A stretch of DNA of 64,000 nucleotides from Akkermansia muciniphila (GTDB lineage: Bacteria > Verrucomicrobiota > Verrucomicrobiia > Verrucomicrobiales > Akkermansiaceae): contig CAMCUY010000005.1 in the NCBI GenBank assembly GCA_945879075.1, forward strand, positions 1 to 64,000, given 5' to 3'. The notes beneath the pieces are model-generated. The model had not been told where the DNA came from. It was given only the letters and a program-made list of their open reading frames with translations, and did no database searches. The translations under genes and the position numbers were made by a program. Shown one piece after another: positions 28,424 through 48,505 of the stretch (positions are counted from its first letter, which is position 1; every line of letters begins with the position of its first letter).

Positions 28424-29746
28424 ATGAAAACCCGCCGCGATTTCCTCCGCTCTACCGTCCTCGGCGTATCCGCCACCTGGACCGTCCCCATGTTCGTCGA
28501 GCGCACCTTCGGCCAGCTCCATGAAGGCGCCCGCGACCTTGCCGTCCAGCCGGTCACCGGCAAGGACGACACCATTCTAATCGTCCTCCAGCTCGCCGGC
28601 GGCAATGACGGGCTCAACACGCTCGTCCCCTTCGCCGATGACGCCTATCACAAGGCCCGCCCGCGCCTCGCCAAGAAGGAAAAGGAAATCATCAAGCTCA
28701 GCGACCACGTCGGCTTGAACGCCTCGATGCCTTTCCTCGGCTCGCTGTTCAAGGAAGGCGACCTCGGCATCGTCCAAGGCGTCGGCTATCCGAATCCGAA
28801 CCGCTCGCACTTCGTCTCCACCTCGATCTGGGAAACCGCCGACACCACCAATCATTCCAACACCGGCTGGCTCGGCCGCTACTTCGACAACGCCTGCCCG
28901 GGTGCCGACCCCACCGTCGGCATCAGCTTCAACAAGACCCAGCCCGAGAGTTTCGGAGCCTTGAAAAACCCCGGCGTCTGCCTCAACTCGCCCGAGCTCT
29001 ACCGCTGGATTCACAGCGGCGGCGACAAGGACCAGGCGGAACAATTCTTCGCCGACCTCAACAAGCCTAACATCGGAGTGGATCACGACGAGAACGAGCC
29101 CACCAGCGGCGGCTCCATCGCCATGGCCGCGGGCGGCAAGGTGGGCGGCATCACCGGCGAGGGAAATCTCGCCTTCCTCGAACGCGTCGCCCTCGACGCC
29201 CGCGTCAGCTCGAAGACCATCCTCGAACTCGCCGCCAAACACAAAACCACCGTCCGTTACGACGGCTCCCCGCTCGCCCGGAATCTCAATCTCGTCGCCC
29301 GCATGATCGCCGGTGGCATGCCCACCCGCGTTTACTACGTCAGCCACGGCGGCTTCGACACCCATAACCAGCAGGCCAACTCCCACGACCGCCTGCTAGG
29401 CCAGCTCGACAGCGGGCTCAAGTCCTTCTTCGCCGACCTCAAGCAGCAGGGCAATGACAAGCGCGTCGTGCTCATGACCTTCTCCGAGTTCGGCCGCCGC
29501 GTCTCGGAAAACGCCAGCGCCGGCACCGACCACGGCAAGGCCTCCTGTCTCTTCCTCGCCGGCCCCGGCATCAAGGGCGGCCTCCACGGCACCCACCCCA
29601 GCCTCACCGATCTATCGGAAGGCGACATCAAGCACACCGTGGACTTCCGCAGCGTTTACGGCACCTTGCTTGGCGACTGGCTCAAAGCCCCGAACCTGAA
29701 ACCCATCCTCGGCGCGAACTATTCGAAGATGGGGCTCATCGGGTGA
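28424..29746 (+). CDS. DUF1501 domain-containing protein with Tat-like signal
   Basis: MKTRRDFLRSTVLG; LQLAGGNDGLNTLVPFADDAYHKARP; pairs with DUF1800. Confidence 0.92.
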   Translation: MKTRRDFLRSTVLGVSATWTVPMFVERTFGQLHEGARDLAVQPVTGKDDTILIVLQLAGGNDGLNTLVPFADDAYHKARPRLAKKEKEIIKLSDHVGLNASMPFLGSLFKEGDLGIVQGVGYPNPNRSHFVSTSIWETADTTNHSNTGWLGRYFDNACPGADPTVGISFNKTQPESFGALKNPGVCLNSPELYRWIHSGGDKDQAEQFFADLNKPNIGVDHDENEPTSGGSIAMAAGGKVGGITGEGNLAFLERVALDARVSSKTILELAAKHKTTVRYDGSPLARNLNLVARMIAGGMPTRVYYVSHGGFDTHNQQANSHDRLLGQLDSGLKSFFADLKQQGNDKRVVLMTFSEFGRRVSENASAGTDHGKASCLFLAGPGIKGGLHGTHPSLTDLSEGDIKHTVDFRSVYGTLLGDWLKAPNLKPILGANYSKMGLIG

Positions 29747-29751
29747 ATGTG

Positions 29752-29809
29752 TTGCGGCTGTCTCAGTCGGATTCTGAGGCTCCGCTCCCGGCTGAAACAG
29801 CCGGGACAC
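29752..29809. repeat. Dyad repeat copy 1 (GCTGTCTCAGTCGGATTCTGAGGCTCC...CAGCCGGGACAC)
   Basis: Same sequence family as 30771..30831. Confidence 0.75.
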
Positions 29810-30730: not shown

Positions 30731-30770
30731 AGACCCCAACGAGGCCTCGGCTTGGGCTGGATGGGGAATG

Positions 30771-30831
30771 GTGTCCCGACTGTCTCAGTCGGATTCTGAG
30801 GCTCCTCGTTCAGCGGAGACAGCCGGGACAC
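30771..30831. repeat. Dyad repeat copy 2, overlapping the acyltransferase 3' end
   Basis: GTGTCCCGACTGTCTCAGTCGG...GGAGACAGCCGGGACAC; termini complementary (TGTCCCGnCTGTCT / AGACAGnCGGGACA). Confidence 0.8.
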
Positions 30832-31882
30832 GCTTTCGGCCATGCGCCGGTCTCGTTTCCAGGTAGCGCCAGCACAGCCAAGCCAGCCCCCAGGAGGTCA
30901 GACCGAAGACTCCGAGGCGGAGGATTTGCCAATATCCGACGAAGAACGGCCCCCACAGCCACGGCAGCGCGAAGCCGAGAAACAACGGCACCGGCGTGTG
31001 AAACAGATAGAGCCCGAAGCTCAAGCGCCCGACGTGCTGCGCCGCCGGATGATCGAGAATTTTTCCAAGCCACCCGCCGAAGCCGGCCAAGGTGGATGAA
31101 ATGAGCCCCGCGAAAACCACCGAGACGAGTGTTTGCTGGAAGTAGCAAAGGCCACCGATGGGCCTGCCCATCTCATTGAAAACGTAGAGCGTGATGTATC
31201 CTGTGAACGCGAGTGCCGCTGCTAGAGTCAGCCTCCCGTCGCCGACCTTCATCCCACGCTCGATGGCCAGCGCGAGCAAGGCGCCCACGCCGAAATAATC
31301 CAGCGCCGTGGGAGTGATCGCCTGGCTGTGATGGATTTCAGGAAACCACTTTTCCAGAATCATCCGTGAAATGGGGGCCAGCGCGACGCAAAGCCCGAAC
31401 ACCCCCGCAAGGAGTTTGCGCGGCGTGAGGAAAACCACCAGCGGCCACACCAGATAGAACTGCACTTGGAGCGCCAGCGTCCAGTAGTGCGCCGTCCCGG
31501 ACGGCCAGCCCTCCATGAACGCCATATGGAAATTCGACCAATGCCCGAAGTAAGCCGGCCAATGCTGCCGGATGTCCGAAGCTCCCACGAGGATCGCGAA
31601 AAGCATCGCCGCGTAGCACGGCACCAGAATGCGCGCCATCCGCCGTTTCTGGAAATCCAGGTAAGCCTTGATGCGCCATTTCCCTCCGGCCTCCTCGCAA
31701 GCCGCCCGCTCGCGCAACAAGATCCGCGTGATCAGGAAGCCGGTCAGAGTCAGGAAAAAGAACAGCCCGATCTCAAACGGGAAATGCCCGCGCCATTCCG
31801 CCGGCGCCCAGTGAAGCCACATCACGCCAAGCACCGCGAAAGCCCGCCATCCGTCTAACTGGTAATTTCGAATCGCCGTCAA
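30785..31882 (-). CDS. Acyltransferase family 3 (OafA/YrhL-like)
   Basis: LDGWRAFAVLGVMWLHW motif, about 10 TMs. Confidence 0.88.
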   Translation of the reverse strand: MTAIRNYQLDGWRAFAVLGVMWLHWAPAEWRGHFPFEIGLFFFLTLTGFLITRILLRERAACEEAGGKWRIKAYLDFQKRRMARILVPCYAAMLFAILVGASDIRQHWPAYFGHWSNFHMAFMEGWPSGTAHYWTLALQVQFYLVWPLVVFLTPRKLLAGVFGLCVALAPISRMILEKWFPEIHHSQAITPTALDYFGVGALLALAIERGMKVGDGRLTLAAALAFTGYITLYVFNEMGRPIGGLCYFQQTLVSVVFAGLISSTLAGFGGWLGKILDHPAAQHVGRLSFGLYLFHTPVPLFLGFALPWLWGPFFVGYWQILRLGVFGLTSWGLAWLCWRYLETRPAHGRKRVPAVSAERGASESD

Positions 31883-34014
31883 ATCGACTGCCAGCTTTCA
31901 CGGCGGCTGCCCATCGAGCAAGGCCAATGGGCAAGGTCCTGGGCCCCGAGGATCCGGGCGATCCGGGCCGGGTCTGAGCCCCACACGCGGACGAGCGTGC
32001 GGTTACCGATTCCGCGGCCGCGTTCGGTGGCCATGAGCACACGGGTGCCGGCTTTTTCGACGTCCCAGGCGTCCGTTTCGCCCGCGGCATTCCAGCCTTG
32101 GCGGAGCAGGATCCCGAGGAAATGGTCGCGGTCTTCGCCTTCCGGGGAGTGGATCGCGAACTCTTCGGCTTGCCCGGGCACTTGGGCTTTCCTCGGCGAT
32201 TCCGGGCGAAGGAAAATCGTCCGGTTTCGCGCCCAGGCGCGGATCCGGGGTTGGAGGAATTTCACGGCTCGGAGCGCGAACCGGGATTGCAGGGAGTCGA
32301 AATTTTCCGCCAAGCCACGCAGCGGCGGCATCCGGTTGGTGATCGCCTGATAGCCGGCGTCGCCCATCGGGCCGTGATAGATGATAGAGTCGGACATCAC
32401 GCGGACAGGTCCGCCGCCATAGATGAAGCCGTGCCATCTCGCGTCGCCACGCTTCGAGAAGCGGGCGGGGTGTTTGGCTAACAGCAAGCGCTCGGCGCGG
32501 CCGTAGCCGAGTTGCTGGCCGAGGAATTTCGAGATCGACGGCCGTCGCCAGTGCCAGACGAAGGCACCGGGGACGAAGCCGAGGCGGAAGCCGGCGTCCC
32601 GCAGCCGCCAGCAGAAATCCACGTCGTCGCCCGCTGTGTGGAACTGCGGATCAAAGCCGCCGACGGTGTCGAACGCGGCCCGCGTCACGGCCAGGTTGCA
32701 TCCCGGCAGGTGCTCGGCCTCGTCGTCGTCGAGCATGACGTGGCTCGGTGCGCCGGGCGCGGCGCAGACAACCGCTTCCTCCCAGGTCTTCGGTTTCGGC
32801 GGTAAATTTGGTCCGCCCGCGGCGACGAATCGGCCCTCTTGAAATGTCCGCCGCAGTCTTGCGATCCATTCCCGGTCGGGCTCGCAATCGTCGTCGGTGA
32901 ACGCCAGCACCTCGCCTTTCGCAACCGCCGCGCCGTTGTTGCGGGCGTTGCTCAAGCCGCAGGGATCCAGCCGCACAAGCCGGGTCCACGGGAAATTTTT
33001 CTCCACGAAATCGGCGCTGCCGTCGGTCGAACCGTCATCCACGACGATCGTCTCGAAGCCGCCGTCGTCCATGTCGCGGATCGCTCTGAGGCAGGTGCCG
33101 ATACGGTCGCGGCCGTTTCGCGTGCAGACGATGACGCTGAAGAAATGAAAGTTAGATTTGAAATCTGAAATCTGAAATTTGAGATTCAAGAGCGCGGGTT
33201 TTGCATTGCCAGCGCGGTCGGTCAGGCCGAAGTCCCAGTCCAGCACCTCGGTGCCGACCCACCAGCGGTCGCTCCAGGCGTAAATGGTCATGCCGGCGGT
33301 CTCCAAATCGAGCGCGGCTTGGCTGGCCCAGCGGAGGATTTCCGCCTGCCGCTCCAAGCCATTGCGCCGCGAATCGACGCCGAATTCCGAGATCACCAGC
33401 GGCCGGTCGCCCGCGATGTGGTGCAGTCGCTTGAGGTAGCCGCGGAACTCCGGCTCGTTTTCCAGATAGATGTTGAAGGCGGTGAAATCGGCGTTTTCCG
33501 GTTCCAGATATTCGGTGCTGGGGTAGTTTGCGTAGGCGAATAACAGGCCGGGCGCGAGCTCCTTACCGAGGGCGATGAGATCTTCAAGCACGCGCCGCAC
33601 TTTGAGCGGGCCCATCCAGCGGGCCAGGTCGGCGGGAATCTCGTTGCCGATGTAAACGCCCGCCAGCGCCGGGTGGTCGGCGGTTTCCTTCAAGCCGTTG
33701 ACCAGCGAGACCGCCGCCGCTGAGTAAAGTCCGGGACGCTGGAAAAAATCCGCGCTCTGGCCCCATTCGAGCCCGCCGAAAACTTTCAAGCCGTGCTCCG
33801 CGGCGGCGTCCAGCAGGATCGCGGGTGGTATTTCATAAAGCCGGATCGCGTTGAACCCCGCCGCCGCCATTTGCGAGAAATCCGCCGCGAAGGACCTCGG
33901 CCAACCGCCGGGAAATGGCCCGTAAGTGACCGCGTTCATCCGCACGCGCTGGTTCCCGGCACGGAAAAATTTTCCGTCCGTCTGCCATCGTTGCGGGTCA
34001 TCTCCGTCTGCCAC
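31879..34014 (-). CDS. Glycoside-hydrolase-like TIM barrel fused to family 2 glycosyltransferase
   Basis: N-terminal AGFNAIRLYEIPP...VYIGNEIP...LVISEFG; C-terminal SVIVCTRNGRDRIGTCLRAI...VVDDGSTDGS...FTDDDCEPD. Confidence 0.85.
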   Translation of the reverse strand: MADGDDPQRWQTDGKFFRAGNQRVRMNAVTYGPFPGGWPRSFAADFSQMAAAGFNAIRLYEIPPAILLDAAAEHGLKVFGGLEWGQSADFFQRPGLYSAAAVSLVNGLKETADHPALAGVYIGNEIPADLARWMGPLKVRRVLEDLIALGKELAPGLLFAYANYPSTEYLEPENADFTAFNIYLENEPEFRGYLKRLHHIAGDRPLVISEFGVDSRRNGLERQAEILRWASQAALDLETAGMTIYAWSDRWWVGTEVLDWDFGLTDRAGNAKPALLNLKFQISDFKSNFHFFSVIVCTRNGRDRIGTCLRAIRDMDDGGFETIVVDDGSTDGSADFVEKNFPWTRLVRLDPCGLSNARNNGAAVAKGEVLAFTDDDCEPDREWIARLRRTFQEGRFVAAGGPNLPPKPKTWEEAVVCAAPGAPSHVMLDDDEAEHLPGCNLAVTRAAFDTVGGFDPQFHTAGDDVDFCWRLRDAGFRLGFVPGAFVWHWRRPSISKFLGQQLGYGRAERLLLAKHPARFSKRGDARWHGFIYGGGPVRVMSDSIIYHGPMGDAGYQAITNRMPPLRGLAENFDSLQSRFALRAVKFLQPRIRAWARNRTIFLRPESPRKAQVPGQAEEFAIHSPEGEDRDHFLGILLRQGWNAAGETDAWDVEKAGTRVLMATERGRGIGNRTLVRVWGSDPARIARILGAQDLAHWPCSMGSRRESWQSI
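33145..33190. repeat. AT-rich heptamer-like repeat in the inter-domain linker of the fusion protein
   Basis: GAAAGTTAGATTTGAAATCTGAAATCTGAAATTTGAGATTCAAG, codes LNLKFQISDFKSNFHF on the minus strand. Confidence 0.75.
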
Positions 34015-41082: not shown

Positions 41083-42078
41083 TCACTCGCCGGTTACGCA
41101 AACGCGGACGCCTTCTTCAGGCACCATCCGGCCTAAAACCGTGCCGCCGTCGCCCGCTTGGAGCGCGGCTTCGACGTCTGCCTCGGCGACGATCGCCACC
41201 CAGCCGATGCCCATGTTGAAGGTGTGGAAGCGGTCTTCCGCGTCGACGTGGGAGAGAAGTTTTTCAATGCCGGGAAGATTCCATTTCGGGATTTCCAGAT
41301 CGGCGCCCATGCCGCGGAACAGGCGCTCGAGGTTTTCCGGCAGGCCGCCGCCGGTGATGTGCGACATCGCTTTCGGCTTCACGCCGGATTTCTTCAAATC
41401 GCGGGTGACGTCGTGATAGAGACGCGTCGGCTTGAGCCAGGCGTGGAGCTCCTCGTCGGTGACCTCGCCGGGAAACTCGTTGAGCACGCGGCGGACCAGC
41501 GACCAGCCGTTGGCGTGGATGCTGTCCGAAGCGTAGCCGATGAGCACGTCGCCGACAGCGACGGTGGTCGGGTCGATCAAGTCGGGTTTTTCCGCGCAGC
41601 CGATGCAGAAACCGGAAAGCTCGATCACGTCCACGGGAACGATGCCCGGCATTTCGGCGGTTTCGCCGCCGGCGAGAATGCAGTCGCAGGCTTCGAGGTA
41701 ATCCGCCATGCCTGAAATGAGCCGGGTGATTTTCTCCTCATGCAACGCAGCAATCCCGATGTAATCGAGGAAAAGCAGCGCATCGCCGCCGGTGGTGAGG
41801 ATGTCGTTCACGCTCATTGCGACGAGATCCTTGCCCGCCGTTTCGAGAAGATCGTGCTCCAGCAGCAGTTCCAACTTCGTTCCGACGCCGTCGCAACCGG
41901 TCATCATGACCGGCTCCTTGTAGCTGCTCAGGTCGTAACAGGCGGCGAAAAGCCCGAAGGCCCCCCACAACTTGCGTGTCTGTTGAGTCCTGCGCACGTG
42001 AGTGCCGATGTCGCCCACCAGAGCGGCCGCTTTGCGCGTGTCCACTCCTGCCTGTTGGTATGTTAACTTGCCCGCCAT
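41083..42078 (-). CDS. purM: Phosphoribosylformylglycinamidine cyclo-ligase
   Basis: MAGKLTYQQAGVDTRKAAALVGDI..., GCDGVGTKLELL, MSVNDILTTGGDALLFLDYI, HITGGGLPENLERLF. Confidence 0.93.
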   Translation of the reverse strand: MAGKLTYQQAGVDTRKAAALVGDIGTHVRRTQQTRKLWGAFGLFAACYDLSSYKEPVMMTGCDGVGTKLELLLEHDLLETAGKDLVAMSVNDILTTGGDALLFLDYIGIAALHEEKITRLISGMADYLEACDCILAGGETAEMPGIVPVDVIELSGFCIGCAEKPDLIDPTTVAVGDVLIGYASDSIHANGWSLVRRVLNEFPGEVTDEELHAWLKPTRLYHDVTRDLKKSGVKPKAMSHITGGGLPENLERLFRGMGADLEIPKWNLPGIEKLLSHVDAEDRFHTFNMGIGWVAIVAEADVEAALQAGDGGTVLGRMVPEEGVRVCVTGE

Positions 42079-42225
42079 ATTCCGCTGCGGGGCTTTTACC
42101 AGCCACCCTCTTCCCGTCACGAAGAAAAAATCTTTGGTTTTTTTATAGTCCCGCCAATCCGCAAAATCCTTTGTTTTACAAGGATTCGGGTCGTGGAAAA
42201 TCAGTTTTCAAAAAATCCGACACTT
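41783..42225. repeat. purM 5' region, copy 1 of duplicated segment (functional locus)
   Basis: Same-orientation match to 48070..48505. Confidence 0.9.
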
Positions 42226-47931: not shown

Positions 47932-48075
47932 CACTCCAAAGCTCCTTGAGCCTGTTCACGGTGTTGGGCTCCGCTCCCACGTATTGCTCTTTCCAACGAA
48001 AATACGTCGGCGAACTCACTCCAAGTTTCTTGCAAACGTCCTCCACTTCGGAGCCTCCGGCCAGCAGCGTCGCCG
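47932..48075 (-). pseudogene. IS3-family OrfA (HTH) fragment
   Basis: LLAGGSEVEDVCKKLGVSSPTYFRWKEQYVGAEPNTVNRLKELWSALTC*. Confidence 0.65.
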
Positions 48076-48505
48076 CCGGTGGTGAGGATGTCGTTCACGC
48101 TCATGGCGACGAGATCCTTGCCCGCCGTTTCGAGGAGATCGTGCTCCAGCAGCAGTTCCAGCTTGGTCCCGACGCCGTCGCAACCGGTCATCATGACCGG
48201 CTCCTTGTAGCTGCTCAGGTCGTAACAAGCGGCGAAAAGCCCGAAAGCCCCCCACAATTTGCGTGTCTGTTGAGTTCTGCGCACGTGAGTGCCGATGTCG
48301 CCCACCAGAGCGGCCGCTTTGCGCGTGTCCACTCCTGCCTGTTGGTATGTTAACTTGCCCGCCATAATTCCGCTGCGGGCCTTTACCAGCCACTCCCTTC
48401 CCGTCACGAAGAAAAAATCTTTGGTTTTTTTATAGTCCCGCCAATCCGGGAAATCCTCTGTCTTACATGAATGCGAGTCCCCGAAAACAGTTTTAAAAAA
48501 TCCGC
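48070..48505 (-). pseudogene. purM promoter and first ~98 codons, truncated second copy
   Basis: Protein identical to PurM from MAGKLTYQQ to LTTGGDA, then fused to the IS3 OrfA fragment. Confidence 0.9.

Follow-up and report, generated by a model that had tools for sequence, protein, structure and literature searches.

The imperfect heptanucleotide array that encodes the linker of a putative glycoside hydrolase/glycosyltransferase fusion protein in Akkermansia muciniphila is very probably a dispersed repeat, held in frame and tolerated in a permissive linker of an ancient fusion, and this linker is one of several recurrent landing places of such arrays. The array was analysed in a window, meaning the whole stretch of 64,000 nucleotides under study, in its own genome and in related genomes. 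The features of the gene are the following:

31879..34014, minus strand: GH157-like/GT2 fusion gene of 711 aa, an open reading frame with orthologues of identical architecture
33190..34014, minus strand: N-terminal TIM-barrel domain (~residues 1-275), a predicted glycoside hydrolase, clan GH-A-like, with a fold match to GH157
33142..33190, minus strand: imperfect heptanucleotide array of unit YTCARAT, encoding the interdomain linker LNLKFQISDFKSNFHF, recognised by its lag-7 score and genome matches and predicted as coil
32440..33140, minus strand: GT2 glycosyltransferase (GT-A) domain (~residues 292-525), matched by PF00535

A heptanucleotide array encodes the linker between the two domains

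The best solved-fold match of the TIM-barrel domain was the GH157 structure 9fz9 (E 4.4e-15; phmmer 7.4e-6). Identity with solved GH157 is about 19%, and the orthologue alignment showed invariant columns at N124-E125 and E210. The fold match and the invariant E125 and E210 make the domain a putative, GH157-like glycoside hydrolase. The second domain scored 82.7 bits against PF00535 (Glycos_transf_2, cut-off 23.3), with the Pfam match beginning at residue 293; its DXD and catalytic Asp motifs are intact, with D327, D374-D376 and D463-D466 invariant among orthologues. Both domains resemble known families in fold and motifs; as far as seen here, the single-chain architecture is particular to this group. 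The gene probably acts on polysaccharides.

The array lies exactly between KPAL and FSVIVC, that is, between the TIM barrel and the GT2 domain. Read on the coding strand, it consists of the successive units CTTGAAT, CTCAAAT, TTCAGAT, TTCAGAT, TTCAAAT, CTAACTT and TCATTTC, encoding NLKFQISDFKSNFH; four good units occupy 33156-33183 and the ends of the array are decayed. In the protein, the linker LNLKFQISDFKSNFHF corresponds to residues 276-291 (positions 33142-33189), preceded by TDRAGNAKPAL and followed by FSVIVCTRNGRD. The array matched itself at lag 7 with a score of 0.64-0.66, where control blocks averaged 0.264 with a 99th percentile of 0.439, and it is therefore a 7-nt tandem repeat beyond chance. 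Tandem Repeats Finder, run with its default score, missed the array, and searching the window alone with a 16-nt pattern gave a marginal result, 7 of 100 shuffles being as good; both approaches were judged too insensitive for this array. An assembly artefact is unlikely, heptad arrays being present in many independent assemblies including the single-contig genome G082.

AlphaFold2 modelled the protein with a mean pLDDT of 88 (46-sequence alignment) and predicted coil at residues 278-291, with pLDDT falling to 61 in the block 281-290 from 87-96 in the adjoining blocks. The coil and this dip agree with a domain boundary at the linker. The open reading frame, the Pfam match and the modelled boundary thus confirm the sequence-only reading in placing an AT-rich repeat precisely between hydrolase and GT2 domains.

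Since the unit length of 7 is not divisible by 3, a YTCARAT array encodes one and the same cyclic heptapeptide, F-K/R-F-Q-I-S-N/D, in whichever of the three frames it is read. This strand contains stop codons in none of its frames, whereas the opposite strand carries TGA in every frame. Such stop asymmetry, combined with the 7-nt unit, limits tolerance inside genes by orientation, length and place: an array is tolerated there only when its open strand is the coding one, when its overall length leaves the reading frame undisturbed, and at a place to which the fold is indifferent.

The linker also stands out by composition. Its GC content is 25%, against 64% for the gene (the second-lowest 48-nt window of the gene), and its codon adaptation is 0.41, against 0.64. 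These values could suit a selected translational feature, either a rare-codon pause or an internal initiation site releasing free GT2, and arrays found elsewhere just upstream of start codons could help initiation. Such a role is highly improbable, since the linkers of other orthologues have gene-like GC (median difference 0.01), which led us to reject a conserved AT-rich or rare-codon linker. An internal GT2 start was likewise discarded: the next in-frame start codon past the linker lies about 22 codons inside the GT2 domain.

The fusion is far older than the repeat

To place the fusion in the phylogeny, we counted its occurrence at three levels. It was present in 54 of 73 genomes of the genus, in 113 of 145 of the family and in 120 of 188 of the class, the last belonging to 75 of 110 genera and about 50 families; these counts include a few GT2-only matches or fragments at contig ends. 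The match was nearly always single and crossed the linker in one open frame. Named relatives carrying the fusion are Akkermansiaceae and other Verrucomicrobiota, mainly metagenome-assembled genomes, with Luteolibacter and Haloferula as isolates. Most relatives in the class match the fusion only to about residue 560, within a longer frame of ~860 aa. For genus g3 of the same family, there was no full-length fusion match among the matches listed.

About 100 orthologues were aligned. Their linkers are of nearly constant length, mostly 16-22 aa after KPA, and unconserved in sequence; none contains a stop codon, the few stops encountered being C-terminal. Nearly all orthologues examined lack the YTCARAT repeat. 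As the fusion extends through the class and the repeat is absent from nearly all orthologues, the fusion is far older than the repeat, and the repeat did not make it. The sequence-only reading had left two options, a repeat that took part in fusing two reading frames or one simply tolerated as a linker. Repeat-mediated fusion is rejected by the age of the fusion and by the many fusions without the repeat, whereas tolerance is supported by a linker that is near-constant in length, unconserved in sequence and predicted to be unstructured. That reading would have been contradicted by homologous fusions sharing an unrelated, conserved linker of equal length: equal length was indeed found, conservation was not.

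A related scenario is that the repeat is a former intercistronic spacer, the GH and GT2 genes having been joined when a heptad-filled gap lost its stop and start. The linker array does look exactly like the arrays filling gaps elsewhere in the genome. However, the fusion is class-wide while the array is limited to single species or small groups with units varying between them, and no split GH/GT2 gene pair was seen among the ~100 orthologues. A spacer origin would then require that the gene was split and fused again locally, within this lineage, of which there is no sign, and we consider it almost certainly wrong.

Different heptad arrays occupy the same linker in other species

The lag-7 self-match of the linker exceeded the 99th control percentile in 10 of 102 distinct orthologues and the 99.9th in three. 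Each of the three clear arrays is built on a unit of its own, namely YTCARAT in the window, AAAATTC in G182 and GATGGYA in G039. When the whole reading frames of 119 fusion orthologues were scanned, all three strong lag-7 tracts fell in the linker, which represents ~2% of the gene. Strong arrays are thus confined to 3 of the 119 orthologues; those of the close relatives G147 (CTCAAATCTCCAATCCCCAATC) and G163 (CATCAACTCTCAACCCTCAATTATCAAC) have lower lag-7 scores, as does a weak CCATCAR array in G146, and a further close relative, G076, has no clear array. The linker-array families are dispersed in their host genomes, with 18 matches in G039, 15 in G163 and 19 in G182; that of G147 had one further match only. 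Mirror-pattern controls were near zero in these four genomes.

A unit length indivisible by 3, in a gene with a probable action on polysaccharides, speaks for a phase-variable contingency locus in which gain or loss of a 7-nt unit would shift the frame and turn the GT2 domain off or on. Heptamer contingency loci are known, for instance HMW1A of Haemophilus influenzae. This explanation is nevertheless very unlikely: the linker array has only about four imperfect units, none of the ~100 orthologues is frame-shifted, and like arrays occur in PolA and PurL (see below), whose switching off is implausible.

Heptad arrays are dispersed and mostly intergenic

In a 1.2-Mb sample of the genome carrying the window, lag 7 was the commonest short-period class: it gave 12 tracts, and the other lags 0-6. 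Five contigs, the last to enter this sample, were picked for holding arrays, which slightly favours the tract counts. Nine of the 12 lag-7 tracts were intergenic. Three-unit YTCARAT matches were found at several other places of this genome, against zero for the mirror-image control. They occupy the short stop-to-start gaps of co-directional genes, usually leaving 4-10 nt to the upstream stop and to the downstream start, distances that are approximate since genes were called with our own simple hexamer model. The gap preceding a groEL-like gene is one of those filled by a YTCARAT array. Across five genomes, 46 of 50 YTCARAT sites lay outside called genes, and all four in-gene arrays were on the stop-free strand. 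With tandem 7-nt units beyond chance and many mostly intergenic sites, the linker feature belongs to the class of dispersed heptanucleotide repeats. Several heptad families reach 15-80 matches within a single genome.

Other repeats were also observed. TAAACTC-type heptads, which made up the mirror-control pattern, are common in their own right in G090, G111 and G122, so yet more heptad families exist. Intergenic YNTCAAC heptads occur as inverted pairs, GTTGA-type on the left and TCAAC-type on the right of a ~30-nt core (L278, ~1500-1581; L282), and possibly form an RNA hairpin. In the window, a 78-nt repeat with a CGGCTG/CAGCCG-type inverted core is present at 29732-29809 and 30754-30831 (77% identical), its copies flanking a stretch around 29.8-30.8 kb. 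A 300-nt direct duplication is found at 41780-42079 and 48067-48366 (97% identical, 6.3 kb apart).

PolA and PurL loops are occupied by many unit families

In-gene array cases led to two further proteins, named by their characteristic motifs: PurL in the genome of the window and PolA in G127 and G117. In PolA, the turn VPR-EGFT-LLSCDYSQIE, which adjoins motif A, is replaced by an array in several species: YTCARAT arrays in G127, G135 and G053, a YNTCAAC array in G159 and a CYCCAAT array in G182 and G185. A second PolA loop carries YTCARAT arrays in several species. At the motif-A turn of G190 (L395), G175 (L400) and G181 (L403), a palindromic CGAGTCTC-n-GACTCG insert was seen with no heptad array, as if this turn accepted other small repeats too.

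In PurL, the hairpin SIDGRPEEE located before KNETHNH (site S1) is replaced by an array in 11 of 18 species, involving at least six unit families; the array is absent from the other seven, most of which still show a turn of recognisable SIDGRPEEE type. At the linker preceding the amidotransferase domain (site S2), most species have heptad arrays, which belong to several families. The PurL of the window's own genome (1247 aa; L346 9215-12958, contig C26) contains two different in-frame arrays, TCAATCC-type in the hairpin and ATCCAAA-type in the S2 linker.

Scans of whole reading frames, blind to position, placed 10 of 11 lag-7 tracts of PolA in the two loops. In the 18 PurL orthologues 30 tracts were found, 12 of them in the S2 linker and seven in S1. 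Control lags of 5, 8, 10, 11 and 13 gave 0-2 tracts per gene set for the fusion, PolA and PurL, and no more than 0-1 at any one of them in PurL and PolA. The reading frames of all three remain intact across species despite their in-frame arrays.

Origin and turnover of the arrays

Array states were scored by hand and mapped on a concatenated protein tree, several deep nodes of which are weakly supported. Fitch parsimony gave six changes at PurL S1, four at the fusion linker and six at the PolA turn; PurL S1 would require 10 gains if these were irreversible. Some of the array states may represent one ancestral array with unit turnover and not separate gains.

Units from different sites in different genomes were compared. 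Pairs within one base of each other made up 17.5%, five times the 3.5% obtained with composition-matched random heptamers. Units within one genome were slightly more alike (p = 0.03). On the coding strand the units contain hardly any G (9 of 252 letters), and this scarcity eliminates the majority of TGA and TAG stops, as well as of ATG, GTG and TTG starts.

One explanation dispenses with copying: each array would arise in place when replication slippage acts on a chance seed, loops being the only places to tolerate it. Among long simple repeats, heptanucleotides were reported to rank first in abundance in most prokaryotic genomes, with polymerase slippage put forward as a mechanism (Mrazek et al. 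2007, as summarised in PMC4679880). The similarity of units within genomes is weak enough that independent slippage stays compatible with it. On the other side, near-identical units occur at unrelated loci of different genomes at the fivefold excess given above, and several families are present at tens of matches in one genome. Slippage in place as the sole origin is unlikely, if still deserving some weight.

Copying and slippage with unit turnover both fit the data, and a mixture of them is favoured. Under the preferred reading of a dispersed array tolerated in a permissive linker, arrays in this group of Akkermansiaceae mostly fill short gaps between co-directional genes and also repeatedly colonise unstructured protein linkers and turns. 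They would spread by copying from other arrays of the same genome, by replication slippage and by unit turnover, and purifying selection would leave them mainly in loops and gaps. No linker function beyond spacing would be needed. A more daring proposal, which we regard as doubtful, is that an active process in Akkermansiaceae writes heptad arrays of the resident family into gene gaps and into protein linkers and turns, arrays at fixed sites being repeatedly replaced by, or homogenised to, the current unit of the host.

Comparison with known repeat systems

The closest described system is that of the TAACTGA heptamer repeats of Beggiatoaceae, Cyanobacteria and Bacteroidetes (MacGregor 2015, PMC4679880). 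These short direct arrays lie mostly a few nucleotides upstream of start codons, with a few in reading frames, one of which lies in an RpoC-like protein, at a surface loop. As in the YTCARAT arrays, one strand has stops in all frames and the other is open (PMC4679880). The TAACTGA system has a single dominant unit, and its in-gene cases mostly concern protein ends or hypothetical proteins; here, in contrast, the units are YTCARAT or other families, and from one species to another a given internal loop of an essential enzyme is filled by arrays of many different families. In Xanthomonas and Nostoc, G-rich heptanucleotide repeats are likewise dispersed, preferring gaps between aligned reading frames and being under-represented in coding regions (PMC4692102), but they form G-quadruplexes, whereas the present units are nearly G-free on the coding strand. 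The STRR heptads of Calothrix, of which three different ones are reported in one genome (as cited in PMC4692102), are also tandem heptanucleotides, in another organism.

Rickettsia palindromic elements are small dispersed DNA segments found in frame in unrelated genes and compatible with protein function (PMC10969869). Judged from their intact reading frames, the fusion, PolA and PurL appear to offer a similar case of in-frame presence in unrelated genes. The Rickettsia elements are ~150-bp palindromes encoding a conserved peptide, whereas the present arrays are simple repeats of 20-40 nt with many units; those at the sites compared are direct tandem repeats of 28-48 nt whose peptide varies between species. 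Heptanucleotide repeats as such are known, but in the open-access literature we found no description of heptad repeats in Verrucomicrobia, none of Verrucomicrobiota proteins that recurrently carry in-frame heptads of multiple families, and none of housekeeping proteins whose loops are occupied again and again by arrays of changing family.

A fusion created by the repeat gives way to a fusion joint which is one of several landing places. A simple repeat of non-triplet length here recurrently supplies new protein sequence to enzymes that are intact and conserved, at sites that include, in DNA polymerase I, the turn beside catalytic motif A. Since one site holds different units in different species, the spread of arrays and the limits on loop insertions become directly testable with strain collections. 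If arrays were actively written, the PurL and PolA loops would be fast-evolving recorders of repeat turnover in Akkermansiaceae.
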